Shown: one piece after another, positions 54,474 to 64,000 of the stretch
Numbering within the stretch: the first letter of the stretch is position 1
How the letters are laid out: every line of letters starts with the position of its first letter
Source of the DNA: Psychrobacter urativorans
Lineage (GTDB): Bacteria > Pseudomonadota > Gammaproteobacteria > Pseudomonadales > Moraxellaceae
Length of the DNA: 64,000 nucleotides
Direction of reading: 5' to 3'
NCBI RefSeq assembly: GCF_001298525.1
Contig: NZ_CP012678.1
Span: forward strand, 1,302,001 to 1,366,000
Made by a program: the position numbers and the translations under genes
Notes under the pieces: generated by a model
The model's database searches: none
What the model was told of the DNA's origin: nothing
What the model saw: the letters and a program-made list of their open reading frames with translations, nothing else

Positions 54474-57296
54474 TTATGAGGCATTGATGCTGTCACTGGC
54501 TAGATGACGCAAGACATAATGGAGTACGCCACCATGACGGACGTATTCACGCTCTTTTGGCGTCTGGAGCATGACGTTGACTTCAAAGGTTTCTGTTGAA
54601 CCATCAGCGCGCGTGGCAGTAACAGTTGCCGTTTTACTTTCACCGTTATTGAGTCCGGTAATACTTAATACTTCGGAGCCATCGAGCTTATGGGTTTGCG
54701 CATTTTCACCTTCTTTAAAGGTTAATGGCAACACGCCCATACCGACTAAGTTAGAGCGGTGAATACGCTCAAAGGAGCCCGTTAGTACGGCTTTAACACC
54801 TAGTAAAATCGTACCTTTCGCTGCCCAATCACGGCTCGAGCCTGAGCCATATTCGTCGCCACCGAGCACCACGAGCGGACGCTTGTCTTCTTTATACTTC
54901 ATTGCCGCATCATAGATAGCCATTTGCTTACCATCTTTCAGGGTAGCTTTATCGCCTTTAAAGTAATAGGTATAACCGCCCTCTTTACCATCCATCATGA
55001 GATTTTTAATACGAATGTTGGCAAAAGTACCGCGTGTCATGACGGCATCGTTACCACGACGTGAGCCATAACTGTTAAAGTCCGCTTCCATCACACCGCG
55101 TGATTGCAAGTACAAGCCAGCAGGAGAATCCGCATCAATATTGCCCGCAGGTGAAATATGGTCGGTGGTAATAGAATCGCCAAACATACCAAGGATGCGC
55201 GCATTCTCAATATCAGGAATACCTTCTGGTTCCATGGTCATACCTTCAAAGAAGGGCGGATTTTGAATGTACGTTGACGCTTCACTCCATGGATAAAGTT
55301 GACTGTCGGGAGAGGCGATCGCATTCCATTCCTTGCTACCATTAAATACTTCACCGTAGTTTTTATGGAACATTTCGGCATCAATATTATTAGCAATCAG
55401 CTCGTTAATCTCTGCAGACGTTGGCCAAATATCTTTTAAGAAGACATCGTTGCCTTCACGGTCTTGACCCAATGGTTGGGTAGTCATATCGATATCTACC
55501 GTACCTGCCAGCGCATAAGCGACCACTAATGGCGGAGATGCTAAATAATTGGCTTTCACGTGAGAGTGAATGCGCCCTTCAAAGTTACGGTTTCCGGATA
55601 ATACGGCAGCGGCGACCAAGTTATTTTCTTCAATGCCTTTTTCGATACTTTCAAGCAAGGGTCCTGAGTTACCGATACAAGTGGTACAGCCATAACCCAC
55701 CAAGTAGAAACCAATTTTTTCCAGCTCGTCCATGAGTTTGGTTTTTTCAAGATAATCGGTGACGACTTTTGAACCGGGTGCAAGGGAGGTTTTTACCCAC
55801 GGCTTAGCGGTTAGCCCTTTTGCGGCGGCATTTCTAGCGACCAGTCCTGCGCCAATCATAACCGCTGGATTGGAGGTATTGGTACAGGAAGTAATCGCCG
55901 CGATAACCACCGCCCCATCACGCAAATTGTATTCTTCATCATTAATATCAACGATGCTACAAAAATTACTCGTGACATCACAAAAGGCGCTTGGTTCAGC
56001 CGCTAACGATTTCGCCTGCGCTTGCTTGCCGCCTTCTTCTTCAAAGCGATCTTTACCTTTAATGGCAGCCTTACGATCTTTAGTCATGGTCTCTAAAGTG
56101 GAGCTAAAGCTTTTATGCATATCCGCTAAATTGATGCGTTGATGCGGCAATTTTGGTCCGGCAAGTGAGGTCTGAACCGTGGCTAAATCCAGATGAAGCT
56201 TACTTGAATAGCAAGCATCTTCTGTATCAGCATCATGCCAGAGACCTTGAGCTTTGGCGTATTTTTCCACCAGTTCAATTTGCGCCGCATCGCGTCCAGA
56301 TAGGCGCAGATACTCAATGGCGATTTGATCAATCGGGAAAATACCACAAGTGGCGCCATATTCTGGTGCCATATTGGCAATGGTGGCACGATCAGCAAGC
56401 GGCATATTGTTTAAGCCTTCACCATAAAATTCGACAAATTTACCCACCACACCATGCGCGCGGAGCATCTCAACAACGCGCAGTACCAAATCAGTCGCGG
56501 TAACGCCTTCGGACAACTGTCCTGTCAACTCAAAGCCAACGACTTGTGGAATCAGCATCGACGACGGTTGTCCGAGCATTGCTGCTTCCGCTTCGATACC
56601 ACCAACGCCCCAACCAAGCACGCCAATACCGTTAATCATAGTCGTATGACTGTCCGTACCAAAAACCGTATCGGGGTAAGCGGTCAGCTCGACCCCATCG
56701 CCATTATCAACGGCAGCTGCCATGACCACGCGCGCTAGATATTCCAAATTCACTTGGTGCACAATACCGGTTGCTGGTGGTACGACGACAAAGTTTTTAA
56801 ACGCCTGTCTGCCCCAATGTAAAAATTCATAACGTTCATTATTACGCTGAAACTCAATTTTTTTATTTAAATCGAGCGCATCTTCGCGACCATAAACATC
56901 GACTTGTACCGAGTGGTCAACGACCAATTCACTCGGGATAAAAGGGTTAATTTGCTCGGCTTTACCACCCAACTTGACCACCGCATCACGCATTGCCGCC
57001 AAATCCACTACCGATGGCACACCCGTAAAATCTTGGAGCACCACGCGCGCGGGCATAAAAGCAATCTCTTGCGATGGGGCAGCGCCCTCATCCCAATTCG
57101 CGACGGCTTCGATGTGCTCTTTACCCACCGACTGTCCACCATCTTCATTACGTAGCAAGTTTTCCAGTACAATTTTCATGCAAAATGGCAGTTTTTCGAT
57201 ATGCGGATAGGTTTTTGCCAATGTCGGTAAACTATAGTAGGCATATTCCTTGCCAGCGACGGTTAGAGTATCTTTTACGTTAAAAATGTCACTCAT
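54474..57296 (-). CDS. acnA: Aconitate hydratase AcnA
   Basis: This TCA-cycle enzyme isomerises citrate to isocitrate with a [4Fe-4S] cluster. The 940-residue protein has the IRP/AcnA layout, with the cluster cysteines in ITSCTNTSNP and GYGCTTCIGNSGP, substrate motif VFGTDSHTTMINGIGVLGWG and the swivelling domain VLGGDEYGSGSSRDWAAKG. ATG at 57296 has AAGGAAG upstream; the longer frame to 57380 is not needed. It is monocistronic, ending at the terminator at 54418. The length is about 50 residues over E. coli AcnA. Confidence 0.97.
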   Translation of the reverse strand: MSDIFNVKDTLTVAGKEYAYYSLPTLAKTYPHIEKLPFCMKIVLENLLRNEDGGQSVGKEHIEAVANWDEGAAPSQEIAFMPARVVLQDFTGVPSVVDLAAMRDAVVKLGGKAEQINPFIPSELVVDHSVQVDVYGREDALDLNKKIEFQRNNERYEFLHWGRQAFKNFVVVPPATGIVHQVNLEYLARVVMAAAVDNGDGVELTAYPDTVFGTDSHTTMINGIGVLGWGVGGIEAEAAMLGQPSSMLIPQVVGFELTGQLSEGVTATDLVLRVVEMLRAHGVVGKFVEFYGEGLNNMPLADRATIANMAPEYGATCGIFPIDQIAIEYLRLSGRDAAQIELVEKYAKAQGLWHDADTEDACYSSKLHLDLATVQTSLAGPKLPHQRINLADMHKSFSSTLETMTKDRKAAIKGKDRFEEEGGKQAQAKSLAAEPSAFCDVTSNFCSIVDINDEEYNLRDGAVVIAAITSCTNTSNPAVMIGAGLVARNAAAKGLTAKPWVKTSLAPGSKVVTDYLEKTKLMDELEKIGFYLVGYGCTTCIGNSGPLLESIEKGIEENNLVAAAVLSGNRNFEGRIHSHVKANYLASPPLVVAYALAGTVDIDMTTQPLGQDREGNDVFLKDIWPTSAEINELIANNIDAEMFHKNYGEVFNGSKEWNAIASPDSQLYPWSEASTYIQNPPFFEGMTMEPEGIPDIENARILGMFGDSITTDHISPAGNIDADSPAGLYLQSRGVMEADFNSYGSRRGNDAVMTRGTFANIRIKNLMMDGKEGGYTYYFKGDKATLKDGKQMAIYDAAMKYKEDKRPLVVLGGDEYGSGSSRDWAAKGTILLGVKAVLTGSFERIHRSNLVGMGVLPLTFKEGENAQTHKLDGSEVLSITGLNNGESKTATVTATRADGSTETFEVNVMLQTPKEREYVRHGGVLHYVLRHLASDSINAS

Positions 57297-57608
57297 GGTA
57301 GCTTCCTTATTTATGCTATAGATTAAGTTAGGTCTATCGGTATAACAGGTGGCTAAATAGCTTCTTGAAGAGAAAATCAATAATATTAAAACCGGTTTCC
57401 TTAGATAACGCTACTCACAAGCGCATTAATAAACGCCATAAAAACCATTTCAATCGATAAAAGCGTCCTTTTACCATAGCAAATAAGCGCACAGTTGTTA
57501 ACCCTAACTGCTTAACGAATGGTGGCAAAACAGTAAACGAAACAGAGAGTTAGTACCTAAGCAATAATCTATAGTTAAAAGAGGTAGCTATTTATACGGG
57601 CGTCCGAC
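57297..57608. other. Gap between acnA and the DUF3025 gene
   Basis: About 310 bases on the 5' side of acnA and the 3' side of the DUF3025 gene. It must hold the acnA promoter, but no box pair is convincing. I see no gene or strong hairpin. Confidence 0.45.
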
Positions 57609-58652
57609 TTATAGGGAAGTACGGCGACCACTACGAAAGACTCGGCTATCACTGTAAAATTCAGGATTAACATTGTCTGCCCAAAAATGCGGCACGCCCA
57701 ATATCGGTAAGGGAGCAAGCTGACGCGGCGTAACCGCTTCTTGCGAGAGTAGATGATGCATATGTTCTGCCAGCAGCGTATCTATCTGCGCTATCCGTTC
57801 AGGCAAGGCTTGCGTAAAGAAATCGGGCGACACGTTCAACACCACGCTATGGGCGCATAAGGTTTTACGCGGCTCGATAAGCTGCTCCAGCAAGGCATGA
57901 CCAAAAATATATACTGCCGCCTTGGCATCATTACGTGGCGCCAATGGGTTATCCCACTCAGCACGCGGCGCAACCAAACTGTTTTGCCAATTAAAATCAA
58001 TCAATGCCGTACCAATATCTGGCTCACACGTCACCAATATCGCGCCATTTTCATCAAATACCGTAATGGTATCGCGTACTCGCCCTCGGGGATTTTTTGG
58101 ACTATCAATAGCGTTCGTACTTTGCGCAGCCATTTCAAGCATATGATGATAATTCAGCAAGGCTTTGGTTTTTGGAAAGGTCAGCCAAATACTGCCATTA
58201 AATAAATCATGCAAATTTTCACGGGTCGGAATATTGCCTGTCGTGCCAATAAAATGCTCATAGCCTATGCCTTCTGGCAAATCATCTTGCGCTACAAATT
58301 TTAAGGTATGCGCTTGATTATTTAATATCGATTTGGCTAGTAACAGTTTGGTCTGTGGCTGATGCTGGGTTCTCTCAGCTTGTTGACACATTCCAGTATT
58401 CAATAAGTCAGCAATAACGGTGCTGCTTTTACCAGAATTTTTATCAGACTCCGCTTTATCAATCTTTTGCGCTTCCACATTTTTAGCCGAACACTCTGTA
58501 CGATTGCTTAGATTTTGTACCCTCTCACTAAGAAAGCGTAAGTGGCTGATATGTGCCATCCATGGCGCTTGCCAGTCAATCGCAGCAAAGCTTAAATCAA
58601 GTGACGCTTTAGGAGTGGTGAATGATGGAGTTGGTGGAACAGTATCGTTCAT
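57609..58652 (-). CDS. DUF3025 domain protein
   Basis: This soluble protein belongs to DUF3025, seen in GYEHFIGTTGNIPTRENLHD, LFNGSIWLTFPKTKALLNYH, GRVRDTITVFDENGAILVT and IFGHALLEQLI. It has 347 residues from ATG at 58652; an ATG at 58721 would add 23 residues, and neither has a strong ribosome binding site. A polar insertion (CSAKNVEAQKIDKAESDKNS region) near residue 55-100 is not part of the domain. Its function is unknown. Confidence 0.82.
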   Translation of the reverse strand: MNDTVPPTPSFTTPKASLDLSFAAIDWQAPWMAHISHLRFLSERVQNLSNRTECSAKNVEAQKIDKAESDKNSGKSSTVIADLLNTGMCQQAERTQHQPQTKLLLAKSILNNQAHTLKFVAQDDLPEGIGYEHFIGTTGNIPTRENLHDLFNGSIWLTFPKTKALLNYHHMLEMAAQSTNAIDSPKNPRGRVRDTITVFDENGAILVTCEPDIGTALIDFNWQNSLVAPRAEWDNPLAPRNDAKAAVYIFGHALLEQLIEPRKTLCAHSVVLNVSPDFFTQALPERIAQIDTLLAEHMHHLLSQEAVTPRQLAPLPILGVPHFWADNVNPEFYSDSRVFRSGRRTSL

Positions 58653-58774
58653 GATGACAATCTCTACGGGTCGTGTGGTTTCTATGATATCAATCTCTAT
58701 GCATTTGGCGTGGTGACTCATGGTATCATAGTGCGCTTTTTTTCCGCTTGGCGACTGGTCTATGGTAAGTTTTT

Positions 58775-59491
58775 ATGGCAAATTTTAATACCCACTTAAA
58801 TGGCGCATTTGCAGTCAGTGGCGTACTTGGCTTGACGGTGTACAAAGCCGGATTGATTAATGATTCAGGATTTTTGATGTGTGTCGCTTTGGGTACGATA
58901 GGCGGCTTGTTACCCGATTTGGATTCTGATAATTCAACGCCGATTAAGCTTGGCTTCAATATTGCCTCCTTTATCTTTGCATTTGGCTTGGTGATGCATT
59001 GGCGTAGTGAGCTGAGCTTGGTGGCGCTGATTGCTTTATGGCTGGCAGGTTACGGCTTTATGCGTTATGTGGTCTTCCGCTTATTCACTAGCATGACGGT
59101 GCATCGCGGTGTGATTCATTCGGTACCGTATATGGCAATCTTGGGGCTGGGGCTGACGTGTTTGAACTATTACGGCTTGCATAATCCGCTGTCTATCAGC
59201 TGGTTTTATGGGCTGTTCTTATTTGGTGGCGCGATGGTACATTTGTCGCTTGACGAGATGTATAGCGTGAATTTATCGGGGATGACGCTGAAACGCTCAT
59301 CAGGCACCGCCATGAAGTTTTATCAACATAAAGATAAACAGTGGTATCTATTATTGTATGTGCTGCTGGCATTATTGGTGTATGCCGCGCCACCTTTTGC
59401 ACCGTTTTGGGAGCAATTGCGCGACCCAACTCATTGGGCACAGCTTAAGGTTGGCGTGCTACCTGATTTAATAGATAATTTGAATAGATAG
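58775..59491 (+). CDS. YdjM-like membrane-bound metal-dependent hydrolase
   Basis: The 238-residue inner-membrane protein has at least five hydrophobic segments and the YdjM/DUF457 pattern: MANFNTHLNGAFAVSG (early histidine), GTIGGLLPDLDSDNS (D-x-D), TVHRGVIHSVPYM and HLSLDEMYSVNLSGM with histidine and aspartate, which fit a metal site. E. coli YdjM is LexA-regulated, but no LexA box is visible here. It is divergent from the DUF3025 gene. Confidence 0.82.
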   Translation: MANFNTHLNGAFAVSGVLGLTVYKAGLINDSGFLMCVALGTIGGLLPDLDSDNSTPIKLGFNIASFIFAFGLVMHWRSELSLVALIALWLAGYGFMRYVVFRLFTSMTVHRGVIHSVPYMAILGLGLTCLNYYGLHNPLSISWFYGLFLFGGAMVHLSLDEMYSVNLSGMTLKRSSGTAMKFYQHKDKQWYLLLYVLLALLVYAAPPFAPFWEQLRDPTHWAQLKVGVLPDLIDNLNR

Positions 59492-59548
59492 CTTGCACTA
59501 TTAATCGCCTTGAACCGTCATATTTTATTTTAAAAACGAGTCCTACTG

Positions 59549-60094
59549 ATGTCTATCAATGCGTCCCTAACCTGCCCTTGCCAAATCAATCCAACAGACG
59601 CGGCAACCACACTGTTGTCTTATAAAAACTGCTGTCAGGACTATCATGACAATATTGATAAAACAGATGGCATAAAGGCAGACAGCGCAGAACGTTTGAT
59701 GCGCAGCCGTTATAGTGCTTTTGTATTGATTAAACCAGATTATATTGTTAAAACCACCTTCCCTGCGCAACAAACTTTGCTCGATATTGAATCGATATCA
59801 TCATGGGCAAAAGAGACTGATTGGGCAGGATTAGAGATAGTAAAACATACGCCAAAGCTGGGCAAACGACGCGCGCAAGTTGAATTTAAAGCGTTCTACA
59901 ATACTGAACATGGGTTGCAAGCGCATCATGAACTATCTGCTTTTGTAAAAATAACCGACAAATCTGCTAATCAGAAAAATGAACGATGGTATTTCCTTGA
60001 CCCAACGGTTGACATGACCGTGAGCCAAAAGCAGCCGTGTATTTGTGGGTCTGGAGAGAAGTTTAAGCGCTGTTGTGGGGTTTATTTAGTGTAG
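59549..60094 (+). CDS. YchJ-like protein with SEC-C zinc motif
   Basis: The 181-residue protein fits the YchJ/UPF0225 family: an N-terminal cysteine cluster (CPCQINP ... NCCQDYH), SAERLMRSRYSAFVLIKPDYI, and a C-terminal SEC-C zinc motif CICGSGEKFKRCCG. SEC-C motifs bind zinc and often contact SecA or ribosomes. The N-terminal cluster has an insertion compared with other members. It follows the YdjM-like gene by 57 bases and converges with the next module. Confidence 0.88.
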   Translation: MSINASLTCPCQINPTDAATTLLSYKNCCQDYHDNIDKTDGIKADSAERLMRSRYSAFVLIKPDYIVKTTFPAQQTLLDIESISSWAKETDWAGLEIVKHTPKLGKRRAQVEFKAFYNTEHGLQAHHELSAFVKITDKSANQKNERWYFLDPTVDMTVSQKQPCICGSGEKFKRCCGVYLV

Positions 60095-60129
60095 CTACTC
60101 TCTCATAACCTAACTCTATCAACACGCTA

Positions 60130-60594
60130 TTAACCCTTTTTTATCAAAGAACGATATTCACTTGAAAACTTAAAAGCAGATATCTGATCAAAAATTATAT
60201 AAATTAAAGTTAGCGAAAAAAATATTGTAGCCAATAAATTCAGGTTGGCTGAGGTGTAATTAATATTACATGAAAAGAATTTCAGATTATTTACAATATA
60301 ACTTACCAGTAGAATACTAACGGCTAGTATAAGATTGGATATTATTTCATTCTTAAGTGCTGTTAAACTGTCTATAGCGCTATTATATAAATCTTTTTTT
60401 GTATCTCTTAGAACCTCAGGTATATCTTTGATGATTGTATCTATGTGGTTATAAATAAATAGAGAAATAGTGGTAATCAATATAGTGATAGCACTTTGAT
60501 ATGGAGTAATATTGTCTAACAACATACAAAGATATTGAACCATCGCTATATAGTTAATTATAGCAACAAGTATTAAGCTGACTATAAAGACCAT
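60130..60594 (-). CDS. Four-helix membrane protein of an AT-rich two-gene module
   Basis: I do not recognise this protein. From ATG at 60594 it has 154 residues: helix 1 (MVFIVSLILVAIINYIAMVQ), helix 2 (AITILITTISLFIYNHI), an amphipathic stretch of about 35 residues (KDIPEVLRDTKKDLYNSAID), helix 3 (SNLILAVSILLVSYIV) and helix 4 (NLLATIFFSLTLIYIIF), then a short charged tail. GAGGAA lies eight bases upstream, overlapping the stop codon of the preceding gene; the frame could also start at TTG 60609. Low GC suggests acquisition. A membrane effector role is inference only. Confidence 0.65.
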   Translation of the reverse strand: MVFIVSLILVAIINYIAMVQYLCMLLDNITPYQSAITILITTISLFIYNHIDTIIKDIPEVLRDTKKDLYNSAIDSLTALKNEIISNLILAVSILLVSYIVNNLKFFSCNINYTSANLNLLATIFFSLTLIYIIFDQISAFKFSSEYRSLIKKG

Positions 60595-60605
60595 TAAAAG
60601 ATTCC

Positions 60606-61520
60606 TCAAAGCGTTCTCACTTTACCCTTGATATAGTCCTTGATATTTAAAAGAAATTTATTCGTACGCGATATACTAAGTTCATATAGCTCTAGCTGCT
60701 TAGTATCCATTATTTCTAAATTATTTTTTTCTAATTCCTCGGTATCAACCTCTAAAATTTCTGGAGTTCCGTCACTATTATATTTTTTCTTCTTTTTTGT
60801 TTTATGATCATCTGTTACAAGCTCCCACTTTCCCTCGCCCTCTTCAATATAATTCACGTAACCGTCAATAGGCTCATACGGAATAATAAGCTCTCCTGCT
60901 GAATTTTCCATCTTTATAATTGTCTTCTCTTGATTAAATAAATTTTTCATATTCTCAAGAGCCGCACGAGCTGTTTTATCTGTCTCCATAATATTAGGAG
61001 ATATCATCATCAACTCTAATCTATAAATTTTTGCGCTATTATCTACAATTTCCCAAAACTTACCTTTAGAAGGAACAGGTTCAACGAATACCTTGTAGTT
61101 ATATTCAGGAATGACTACTTTATTAATTCCTATTTGTATTGAATTACATATCTGAGATACATCACCAAATAAAGAGGTTTTTCTAGCAAAAATAAACTGA
61201 TTTTTAGTATCTACTATAAGAATAACTGCTTTCCAGTCATCTATTTCCTGCTCGACTATATCTTCAGAAGTTTTAACACCAAGCTGCGCTTTTTTCAGTT
61301 TAGCAATTTTACCAACGTAAAATATCGAGTCGTCTATAACCTCCTTAGAAAAACCTATAAACGCATAACTAACCCCTCTTGTCTCCCATGAATATCCTGA
61401 TAAAAGGGTTGATAAAATAGTGTCACCTTTAAGCTCTGGGAGATTTTTCGTTTCAATAAGTGTGGGTTCCTCTTTAACGATAGAATAACGCAAAACATAA
61501 AAATCTTTAATATTATTCAT
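60606..61520 (-). CDS. Unknown 304-aa protein of an AT-rich two-gene module
   Basis: This is a soluble protein of 304 residues that I do not recognise. The N-terminal half is alpha/beta (SYAFIGFSKEVIDDSIFYVG, WKAVILIVDTKNQFIFARKT), the centre has VPSKGKFWEIVDNSAKIYRLE and MMISPN, and the C-terminal part contains YIEEGEGKWELVTDDHKTKK with a run of five lysines. No signal peptide or membrane helix. ATG at 61520 has AAGGG nine bases upstream. It lies directly upstream of the membrane gene and is about 32% GC on two sample lines. Function unknown; the pairing suggests a defence or toxin-type module. Confidence 0.65.
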   Translation of the reverse strand: MNNIKDFYVLRYSIVKEEPTLIETKNLPELKGDTILSTLLSGYSWETRGVSYAFIGFSKEVIDDSIFYVGKIAKLKKAQLGVKTSEDIVEQEIDDWKAVILIVDTKNQFIFARKTSLFGDVSQICNSIQIGINKVVIPEYNYKVFVEPVPSKGKFWEIVDNSAKIYRLELMMISPNIMETDKTARAALENMKNLFNQEKTIIKMENSAGELIIPYEPIDGYVNYIEEGEGKWELVTDDHKTKKKKKYNSDGTPEILEVDTEELEKNNLEIMDTKQLELYELSISRTNKFLLNIKDYIKGKVRTL

Positions 61521-61544
61521 GAGTGTTACCCTTGTAAGCTACCA

Positions 61545-62483
61545 TTAAACACTCGCCCCAACCGCCCGTGCAATCGCAATTCCTTCCTCAATACTCAAAA
61601 ACTTACGCTGGCTTGGACTGTCTTTATAGAGAACTTCGCCATCTTGAAAAATCAAGCATTCATTAACGGCTAGCTGCTGCCATTTTTCGTTTTCAGTGAG
61701 CGGAACAGTAACAATAATGGTCACTTTGTCTTTATCAGTGGTCACATCGCCAAAATTAATGGCTAAATCATCATCAGCCAATTTTGCTTCACCAAACGGT
61801 GCTTGGCGCGTGAGATAAAACAATAAGCTACCAGCGTACGCTAACTGCCAACTGCCATTTGATATCAAGCAATTAAACAAGCCATTTGCCGCCAAATATC
61901 GACATTGGGTGGTTAAGAAATTAAATAACGTTTGTTCATCGGGGCGGGTTTTAAAACTGCTTTTTAAGCGATTAATCAGGTAACAAAACGCCATTTCCGA
62001 ATCGGTTGAACCAACGGGTTGGCAGTGCGAGGCATTACCGTTATCTTGCAAGCGCTGGCAGCGTTTAATGAATTCTTTATTCATCTGCCCATTATGCGCA
62101 AATACCCACTGCTCGCCCCACACTTCACGGGTAAAGGGATGGGTATTTGCCAAACAGTTTTGTCCTTGCGTTGCTTTACGGATATGGGCAATGACATTCA
62201 TGGCTTTAATAGGATAATTATTGACCAAATCAGCAACGGGGGATAAATGGCTAGGGCGGTTATCATGGAATAAACGCAAACCGGTTGAGGCATTTTGCGA
62301 CTCTTCATTATTCGTATTGCCGTTACTATTACCATTACTCGATGGACAATGGCTGCGCTCAAAAAATGCAATGCCAAAGCCATCTTCATGGCTATCTGTC
62401 ATGCCACCACGACGACGAAATCCAGCAAAACTAAAGCCTATATCGGTTGGGGTATTACAGTTCATTCCTAAAAGTTGACACAT
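61545..62483 (-). CDS. yafJ: Class II glutamine amidotransferase YafJ-like
   Basis: This Ntn-type glutamine amidotransferase domain protein starts MCQLLGMNCNTPTDIGFSF, so Cys2 becomes the N-terminal nucleophile. Motifs are HIRKATQG, NTHPFTREVWGEQWVFAHNGQM and PVGSTDSEMAFC, as in E. coli YafJ. The 312 residues include a Ser/Asn-rich insertion (NGNSNGNTNN). No partner synthase is fused, and the acceptor is unknown. Its ATG follows the stop codon of the DUF2007 gene with no gap. Confidence 0.9.
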   Translation of the reverse strand: MCQLLGMNCNTPTDIGFSFAGFRRRGGMTDSHEDGFGIAFFERSHCPSSNGNSNGNTNNEESQNASTGLRLFHDNRPSHLSPVADLVNNYPIKAMNVIAHIRKATQGQNCLANTHPFTREVWGEQWVFAHNGQMNKEFIKRCQRLQDNGNASHCQPVGSTDSEMAFCYLINRLKSSFKTRPDEQTLFNFLTTQCRYLAANGLFNCLISNGSWQLAYAGSLLFYLTRQAPFGEAKLADDDLAINFGDVTTDKDKVTIIVTVPLTENEKWQQLAVNECLIFQDGEVLYKDSPSQRKFLSIEEGIAIARAVGASV

Positions 62484-62825
62484 TTATGCATTACCGCCTT
62501 TATTAATATTATGACCATTATCGTCAGTCGTTATATTGTCTACTATACTCTCGTCTTTCGTACCATCGAGTATGATGGTGCTGTCAATATTATTAAGGTC
62601 AGCATCATTAAGATTAGTATTAATGCTTGACAAAATACGCTGCGCTTGTGCCAAATCAGTATCTTGCACCCATAATACGGCACCTGAATTCATACCGGGC
62701 AGGCTACTTAATGCTTGCACGGATACTTTGATATCATTATTTCGCAGCAAATTCGCGTGAAGTTCACCTTGTATATTAGTATCGTAGCGCGCCAGTTTGT
62801 GCCAATTATCGATTTGATCGGTCAT
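62484..62825 (-). CDS. DUF2007 domain protein (putative signal transducer)
   Basis: The 113-residue protein contains a DUF2007-like domain (residues 8-65: WHKLARYDTNIQGELHANLL, VLWVQDTDLAQAQRIL) followed by an Asp/Asn-rich tail. DUF2007 resembles PII-like signal proteins, but no function is known. ATG is preceded by AAAAGGAATTT. The stop TAA abuts the ATG of yafJ, so the two are coupled. Confidence 0.78.
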   Translation of the reverse strand: MTDQIDNWHKLARYDTNIQGELHANLLRNNDIKVSVQALSSLPGMNSGAVLWVQDTDLAQAQRILSSINTNLNDADLNNIDSTIILDGTKDESIVDNITTDDNGHNINKGGNA

Positions 62826-62973
62826 GGTAAATTCCTTTTAGAGATAGAGTGCTCGCCACCTTTGACGGCAATACGCCACATTGCTATTGTCATTTGCCGC
62901 TGTTATTTGCTTTTTTTACTTTATAATCCCTTAAGCTGATTTTATTAAGCAGGTTGAGCTTATTGAATAAATA

Positions 62974-63972
62974 TCACGCTTTTTCGACATGCGACCAATG
63001 ATAAGCAGCCAGACGTTTCATCAGGTCAGGATTCTTAACCATAATGTTATCACCCGTGCGCCCTTCGGTACGGTTGTAATGAATGACGTTGAGACGTAGC
63101 AGCCAAAATATCACTGCCGCTTTCGCCAACATGACTGGTAGGGCTTGCTTTTCGTCCGTATTCAAAGTGCGTTTTGACTCGTAGCCTTGTAAAAATGCTG
63201 CCATTTTTTGGCGGTCAAAATCAACCGATTCGCCCTGCTCAGCATCGCCCCACGTGGTGCAAAAGTCATTAATAGTAATAGCAATATCCATCACATAATG
63301 CTCGACACTGACTTCGGTAAAATCGAGCAATCCGCTCAAAGTTTCGTTATTGTCGTCTAAATGCCACAAGGTGTTATCGGCAAACATATCGAGATGACAT
63401 AAGCCTTTTGGCAAAGTATCGAGCGGCAAATCGCTATAAGATTGCCAAATAACAAGCATCAGCTTGGCTTCATCGCTTGGCATGAACTGGATTTCGCGGT
63501 CGCGCACCTCATTCCACGGATATAGCGCCACGCCATAGTCTTCGCTTGGCTGCAATGCTTGCAACGTTTCATGGAGTACGGCTAATGCTGCGCCCATATC
63601 CGCACACATGGTTTCGGTGGTTTGCTGCGGATGTGCACCACTCAAACACGGCACGAGGGTAATGGCTTTATTATCATAATGAATCACATAGCTCTTATCC
63701 TTACCGTCAACCAATGCCATTGGTGCGGCTACGGGTAGTTTGCCCACCAATTGATTAAGAATCACTGCCATTTTTTCGATATCACTTGGCGGACGCTCTT
63801 CAAATAACGTGAAGACATAAGAATGCTCGCCCTCATTATCGTCTGTCGTCTGAATAAACCAGTTAGAGTTTTTGATACCTTGAGTAATAGGAATGGCACG
63901 AGCAAACGCCACGCCAAAACGTTGGCAAAATTCGGCAAATTGGGCATCGGTTAACTGGGTATAAACAGACAT
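62974..63972 (-). CDS. thrB: Homoserine kinase (APH-type ThrB)
   Basis: This aminoglycoside-phosphotransferase-fold homoserine kinase phosphorylates homoserine for threonine synthesis. The 332-residue protein starts MSVYTQLTDAQFAEFCQRFG and has the phosphate-anchoring GIKNSNWFI, the catalytic HLDMFADNTLW and the metal aspartate in GLLDFTEVS. This is the form used by Pseudomonas and relatives rather than the GHMP-type E. coli ThrB. The ATG at 63972 is near the right edge of the window. Confidence 0.93.
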   Translation of the reverse strand: MSVYTQLTDAQFAEFCQRFGVAFARAIPITQGIKNSNWFIQTTDDNEGEHSYVFTLFEERPPSDIEKMAVILNQLVGKLPVAAPMALVDGKDKSYVIHYDNKAITLVPCLSGAHPQQTTETMCADMGAALAVLHETLQALQPSEDYGVALYPWNEVRDREIQFMPSDEAKLMLVIWQSYSDLPLDTLPKGLCHLDMFADNTLWHLDDNNETLSGLLDFTEVSVEHYVMDIAITINDFCTTWGDAEQGESVDFDRQKMAAFLQGYESKRTLNTDEKQALPVMLAKAAVIFWLLRLNVIHYNRTEGRTGDNIMVKNPDLMKRLAAYHWSHVEKA

Positions 63973-64000
63973 GACATCTCACTTATGACAATTAAAAAGG

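Follow-up and report, generated by a model that had tools for sequence, protein, structure and literature searches.

The 64,000 nucleotides of Psychrobacter urativorans DNA analysed here (contig NZ_CP012678.1, positions 1,302,001 to 1,366,000; hereafter the window) hold, between a yafJ-like and a ychJ-like gene, two minus-strand genes in tandem, the first for a soluble protein of 304 residues and the second for a small membrane protein with four hydrophobic segments (Table 1). The original prediction, made from the letters of the DNA, had described the genes in this way, and both were recovered at the coordinates it gave. The evidence collected below suggests that the pair is a divergent abortive-infection system of the RexAB type, standing free at a chromosomal site that in other Psychrobacter genomes houses other defence-type modules.

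Table 1. Features at and around the yafJ-ychJ junction, in window coordinates (aa, amino acids; nt, nucleotides; ORF, open reading frame)
Feature	Positions	Strand	Remarks
RexA-like soluble protein gene	60606..61520	-	304 aa, ATG start; ORF list
RexB-like membrane protein gene	60130..60609	-	159 aa, TTG start; ORF list, hydropathy, loop charges
Central loop of membrane protein, between segments 2 and 3	60334..60441	-	about residues 57-92
Variable yafJ-ychJ junction	60095..61544	.	RexAB-like pair is the sole content here
Spacer, yafJ stop to RexA-like start	61521..61544	-	24 nt
yafJ-like gene	61545..62483	-	conserved hotspot flank; match in 104/105 genus genomes; name from the original prediction
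ychJ-like gene	59549..60094	+	convergent conserved flank; match in 100/105 genus genomes; name from the original prediction

A compact gene pair behind yafJ

The TTG start of the membrane gene overlaps the TGA stop of the RexA-like gene, the N-terminus that follows from this start is common to several homologues, and both genes are co-oriented with yafJ. The pair is rich in A and T relative to its neighbours, as had been claimed from hand-counted lines: its guanine-plus-cytosine (GC) content is 30.4%, against 43.2% for yafJ, 42.3% for ychJ and 43.3% for the whole window. Within positions 56000-64000, intervals of 500 base pairs (bp) fall to 28-33% GC at the pair only, and the bin 60001-61000 (0.319) has the lowest GC among the window's 64 kilobase bins. 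Hydrophobic segments were called with a simple hydropathy rule (19 residues, mean of at least 1.4, or 1.6 for the DUF4747 loci below) and no trained predictor; by this rule the 304-residue protein has no segment above threshold. A first protein search yielded seven proteins of the soluble gene and eight of the membrane gene, the window's own included in each, and in the alignments identity to the window's proteins goes down to 42% and 28%, respectively, at nearly constant length. Aligned homologues of near-constant length and a steady membrane partner show that the gene pair is more than chance.

Predicted fold and family of the soluble protein

Scans of both proteins against Pfam, NCBIfam, PHROGs and PADLOC at E-values up to 10 gave chance-level matches only, and sequence searches of solved structures gave nothing convincing for the pair. 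For the soluble protein an AlphaFold2 model was built from 74 sequences (predicted local distance difference test, pLDDT, 86; predicted template modelling score, pTM, 0.85). Foldseek, which the original prediction had proposed as a check, ranked lambda RexA (8twq) first among PDB structures for this model, RdgC second (2owl_A, E 6.6e-5) and then the inner-kinetochore chains CENP-N and Iml3, and RexA led in both structure searches; RdgC and CENP-N/Iml3 are the structural relatives published for RexA itself. An earlier model from 7 sequences, now superseded, was poor (pLDDT 53), yet RexA was already first. In a viral structure library the top matches were uncharacterised phage proteins. In the model a split globular domain, made up of about residues 1-148 and a C-terminal helix (288-300), encloses a middle domain of the dimerisation type (about residues 150-260). 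The predicted fold of the soluble protein is thus that of RexA and RdgC. A strong structural match to a housekeeping family had been named beforehand as a finding that would speak against a defence system; RdgC in second place points in that direction, but RexA stands before it and RdgC is RexA's own published relative. Inspection of the invariant positions in the soluble family showed, in our judgement, no motif that looks catalytic.

After loci from Alteromonas, Desulfobotulus, Pseudomonas, Thiobaca and viral contigs had been added to the alignment, 150 relatives of the soluble partner were collected at E-values up to 0.001, the window's own included. Among whole genomes the family is found in 3 of 105 in the genus, in 3 of 348 in the taxonomic family and in 2 of 398 in an even draw across the phylum, one of the latter being the window genome (G000) itself. 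Conservation at this locus in all Psychrobacter was the other finding named beforehand as contrary, and the three genomes out of 105 answer it.

The membrane partner

The central loop of the small protein, 35 residues long, contains five lysine or arginine residues and its C-terminal tail four, which indicates an N-in/C-in topology, and the central loop is probably cytoplasmic. Four segments are also found in 16 of 17 aligned members of the membrane family (three in P0011) and, by the same rule, in lambda RexB, in CarolAnn gp43 and in the partners encoded by a Vibrio phage and at locus L098. By mean entropy, conservation is strongest in the central loop, at 1.52 bits, and in the C-terminal tail, at 1.53, compared with 1.83 for the whole protein, and K61, D62, L85, K86, E88 and N92 of the central loop are invariant or nearly so. 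In Sbash gp31 the central loop likewise has invariant positions, and R70A or D73A there abolishes defence (PMC6426596). By analogy, the central loop of the window's protein would be the docking site for the RexA-like protein.

Relatives, their carriers and DUF4747

Twenty-one related loci were examined, of which one (L006) was set aside because its contig ends only 140 bases past the gene. In all 20 testable loci the soluble gene is followed on its own strand by a gene for a small membrane protein, either overlapping or no more than two bases away, and this protein has four segments in 18 loci and three in two (L106, L113). The partner in L010 was missed by the ORF rule of the count, read by eye and then checked. 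The 20 loci are not all independent: the proteins of L005 and L107 are identical, L113 resembles L114, and L008 and L015-L019 are closely related to one another. Moreover, ten of them (L015-L019, L106, L107, L113-L115) come from scans of a viral collection, so that viral carriage is overstated in this set. Of the eight loci from the genome collection, three adjoin an integrase- or terminase-like gene (L004, L005, L008), two lie at the Psychrobacter junction (L006, L009) and three show neither setting.

Gene identities in unannotated loci were read from translations. The pair comes right after an integrase-like gene in Pseudomonas mandelii and in viral contigs, and these integrases are near-identical; in Alteromonas an integrase-like gene faces it. 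The pair lies near a terminase-like gene in Desulfobotulus and near Mu-like head genes in L113. In E. coli RHB23-SO-C02 (L116:6530-9108, on a 1.3-megabase record labelled plasmid) an annotated integrase near icd is followed by a RexA-like gene, a relative at 23-29% identity, and by a four-segment membrane gene.

A relation to DUF4747 was also considered. A precomputed PF15931.11 label is attached to 36 of the 120 relatives listed among the 150, and a local Pfam copy found PF15931 neither in the window's protein nor in eight labelled relatives that were rescanned. These labels were thus not reproduced locally; the genome search used PF15931.10. In profile comparisons with hhalign, reversed controls reach E 0.019-0.04 at worst, and therefore the match of the unwidened family to DUF4747 at E 0.02 is not above chance. 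The widened family matched six DUF4747 loci at E 1e-3 over 214 columns, a pairing without a reversed control of its own, which is suggestive only. Behind each of the six DUF4747 genes above the cut-off in the phylum sample (L099-L104) lies a membrane gene on the same strand, whose product has two or three segments at the stricter threshold of 1.6. These six genes from other Pseudomonadota suggest that the DUF4747 family in general may be a marker of RexAB-like pairs.

The yafJ-ychJ junction as a variable site

In 98 of 105 Psychrobacter genomes yafJ and ychJ lie next to each other on one contig and converge; the junction table leaves out G063, G075, G088 and G032 (no ychJ match) and G018 and G084 (genes on different contigs). 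The distance between the aligned gene ends is 2-50 bp in 53 genomes, 51-300 bp in 6, 301-1000 bp in 9 and at least 1.3 kilobases in 30. The other side of ychJ served as control, and none of 92 adjacent gaps there exceeds 300 bp (from the 100 genomes with ychJ, the neighbour lies on another contig in G038, G039, G040, G074 and G087 and far away in G045, G047 and G056).

The cargo was sorted into classes by tblastn comparison with one representative of each, and ten representatives were scanned against PADLOC and Pfam. The 30 large inserts comprise 16 with a PtuA-like ATPase and a PIN protein (the PtuA match rests on broad AAA ATPase models), 5 PD-(D/E)XK (PDC-S26), 4 Schlafen-AlbA_2, 2 TIR plus STAND (one broken), 1 SIR2 and 2 RexAB-like pairs (G000 and G092); 24 of them fall into classes with a PADLOC match for the representative. 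A third copy was seen in G084, where the RexA-like gene lies at a contig end behind yafJ. Psychrobacter genomes thus carry varying small defence-type modules at this junction, with large inserts in 30 of the 98, which bears out the suspicion that the pair sits at a variable spot. All 30 large inserts are on yafJ's strand, the first gene beginning roughly 12-94 nt behind yafJ's last sense codon. No recombinases were noticed at the junction, as judged by eye from ORF starts and from the PADLOC and Pfam scans of representatives. Four of the nine smaller inserts encode an Imm8-like protein (L058, L060, L061, L062; one representative, Pfam E 1.2e-7) and the other five encode proteins of 102, 149, 160 and 211 aa of unknown kind, the 211-aa ORF (G057 and G064) lying opposite to yafJ's strand. 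The representatives of Schlafen-AlbA, Imm8 and two short cargo classes of unknown kind had no PADLOC match.

Comparison of G000 and G092 reveals 93% identity for yafJ, 73% for ychJ and 83% for the next gene, against 43% for the RexA-like and 28% for the RexB-like protein; in G065 yafJ is 97% identical, yet the insert is different. Either two versions arrived at this site or the pair evolves very fast, and both fit a defence gene. Since the flanks and their order are near-universal in the genus and the junction is near-empty in 53 genomes, the insert is the pair alone and no larger prophage.

Two of the other cargoes deserve mention. The PtuA-like cargo (L071-L086) is the commonest, and its ATPase and PIN types seem mosaic, for example in G026 and G036; the known partner of PtuA in Septu is an HNH protein, unlike the PIN protein here. 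A Schlafen-AlbA_2 and HATPase_c_4 protein (one representative scanned) is the sole cargo in four genomes (L087-L090); in G051 and G091 this cargo is in pieces, and the cassettes of G020 and apparently G081 are broken as well. A limited literature search found no published account of a Psychrobacter defence hotspot or of the yafJ-ychJ pairing, and for Rex-like defence on chromosomes it brought up RexAB papers cited here.

Interpretation and alternatives

What could the pair be? We consider it, with a probability of roughly 0.83, to be a divergent RexAB-type abortive-infection system that forms a free-standing cassette in a chromosomal hotspot, its function being predicted from the structural model and by analogy with characterised systems. 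Several results weigh against this. In hhalign comparisons, which used shallow target profiles and no secondary structure, the soluble family scored 0.3% probability against lambda RexA and 0.1% against CarolAnn gp44, the wider soluble profile 0.3% and 0.2%, and the membrane family 0.0% against RexB and 0.1% against gp43. Furthermore, the window pair is not carried by a temperate phage beside a repressor and is the sole filler of its junction; some of its relatives are viral or lie beside an integrase. Given that RexA, RexB and gp44/gp43 are not linked to the pair at the sequence level, the case rests on fold and architecture. The membrane protein of the P. putida system RexABpp was likewise unmatched to RexB by HHpred (PMC12894663).

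By analogy with RexABpp, we expect that the RexA-like protein forms a DNA-binding dimer and senses an early product of the infecting phage, either a replication intermediate or a phage protein. It would then engage its partner, the RexB-like protein, at the conserved central loop, whereupon RexB-like oligomers would open and permeabilise the inner membrane, growth would stop and the infection would be aborted. In RexABpp, part of the population stops growing and suffers membrane damage when RexA is overexpressed, effects that depend on RexB, and depolarisation was not detected (PMC12894663). As for expression, a promoter scan of 60000-62900 found 16 sites versus 11.2 (standard deviation 3.7) in shuffled sequence, and the only terminator-like site of this region lies inside yafJ, none being found between yafJ and the pair, which makes read-through plausible. 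Since promoter-like sites show no clear excess and all large cassettes lie just behind yafJ on its strand, the pair is probably expressed at least in part by read-through from yafJ.

Alternatively, the roles could be reversed as in gp30/gp31 of mycobacteriophage Butters, the soluble protein being the anti-phage effector that the membrane protein keeps inactive. Butters gp30 alone suffices against two phages (PMC7542560, PMC12894663), and the anatomy fits a Butters-type mode as well as a Rex-type one. However, in the systems of lambda, Sbash, CarolAnn and P. putida both genes are required and the membrane protein is the effector (PMC12894663). The lack of a catalytic-looking motif in the soluble family argues in the same direction, and we regard the reversed arrangement as unlikely.

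RdgC is a DNA-binding housekeeping protein that is not known to have a membrane partner, and its second rank in the structure search would fit an RdgC-like DNA handler in recombination or replication that comes with such a partner and has no part in defence. This reading is distinctly improbable, as RexA outranks RdgC in both structure searches, the RdgC family models of Pfam and NCBIfam do not match the window's protein at E-values up to 10, the gene is present in just 3 of 105 Psychrobacter genomes, the junction is otherwise filled by defence-type modules and the small membrane partner is constant.

Could the pair simply be a passenger, a prophage remnant or lysogeny regulator stranded in the chromosome? 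Many relatives are viral, lambda RexA additionally influences the choice between lysis and lysogeny (PMC11077077) and other cassettes at the junction are broken (G020, G051, G091, apparently G081). Yet both ORFs are intact in the window and in G092, two divergent versions occupy the same site between better conserved flanks, and relative to the near-empty junctions the insert is the pair and nothing else, such that we give this reading very little weight.

Finally, a system of the Kiwa, CBASS or Pycsar type can practically be dismissed: Kiwa also combines a soluble with a four-helix membrane protein, but its membrane protein KwaA precedes KwaB, opposite to the soluble-first order here, no Kiwa, CBASS or Pycsar model of PADLOC, Pfam or NCBIfam matched at E-values up to 10 (for Kiwa, neither KwaA nor the KwaB-type domain DUF4868, which we take to be present in the Pfam and PADLOC libraries), and no nucleotide cyclase was found in either protein, the direct neighbours being yafJ and ychJ. 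The absence of Kiwa and CBASS proteins from the VIA rows carries no weight in this. The original idea of a soluble sensor with a membrane effector, probably for defence and in a variable spot, thus gains from fold, topology, pairing and context and loses its analogies to CBASS, Pycsar and Kiwa.

Returning to the RexAB-type reading, we lean, with less confidence, towards a broader scenario. A RexAB branch unlinked to RexA by sequence would have left the prophage-repressor setting and would live as an exchangeable chromosomal immunity cassette, sharing a recombinase-free site behind yafJ with PtuA-PIN, PD-(D/E)XK, Schlafen, TIR-STAND and SIR2 modules; homologous recombination in the flanks would exchange these modules, and read-through from yafJ would express them. 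Earlier work mentions orphan homologues of RexA outside prophages (PMC11077077), and 17 DUF4747/CarolAnn operons lie behind capK/capS regulators (PMC13373217), so that free-standing relatives are not wholly unexpected. If the scenario holds, the junction would be a small defence hotspot free of recombinases, in which further compact systems could be found.

Comparison with known systems

The proposal that the pair had not been described before holds for its sequence family and not for its kind, since the kind is that of lambda RexAB. New are a family that the sequence methods used do not reach from RexA, its place away from a repressor and its role as hotspot cargo outside a visible prophage. 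A true sequence relative is found in Vibrio phage 10N.261.45.F7_PE002B, a non-tailed virus (Vinavirales), whose genes 5 and 6 (L021:2178-3543, annotated hypothetical) form a RexAB-like pair. The soluble protein is 28% identical to the L016 member (E 6e-8) and reaches 98.4% hhalign probability with the window's family, and the overlapping partner gene encodes 161 aa with four segments. CarolAnn gp44/gp43 and Sbash gp30/gp31 (DUF4747/CarolAnn) share the soluble protein with a four-segment partner, the N-in/C-in topology and a functional central loop; they are actinobacteriophage genes, and the CarolAnn pair lies downstream of the immunity repressor (PMC6426606, PMC6426596). The CarolAnn genes have no sequence-level match to the window pair, and Sbash was compared by description.

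RexABpp of P. putida (PP_5643/PP_5644), a tested defence system, is likewise gammaproteobacterial and has a near-equal structural score to RexA and a four-segment partner (PMC12894663). It differs in lying in a cryptic prophage, where two genes separate it from a CI-like repressor upstream, and in a membrane protein of at least 181 residues (as judged from a Y181H mutant) versus 159 here, a comparison by description and not by sequence (PMC12894663). A paper of 2026 counts five RexAB-like systems (PMC12894663), and the 150 related soluble proteins, with pairs in tractable hosts such as Pseudomonas and E. coli, would extend these few examples. Rex is the oldest abortive-infection system linked to anti-phage defence, and its trigger is still unsettled. 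With lambda RexA/RexB the window pair shares the gene order, a soluble protein of predicted RexA/RdgC fold encoded ahead of a small membrane protein with four segments, the predicted division into sensor and membrane effector, and RexB's size and N-in/C-in topology. It differs in that sequence similarity is undetected, that it does not follow a cI repressor, that its genes overlap whereas the lambda rex genes are 15 nt apart, and that it occupies a chromosomal junction instead of a prophage. A copy outside a visible prophage would allow defence to be studied separately from lysogeny control.
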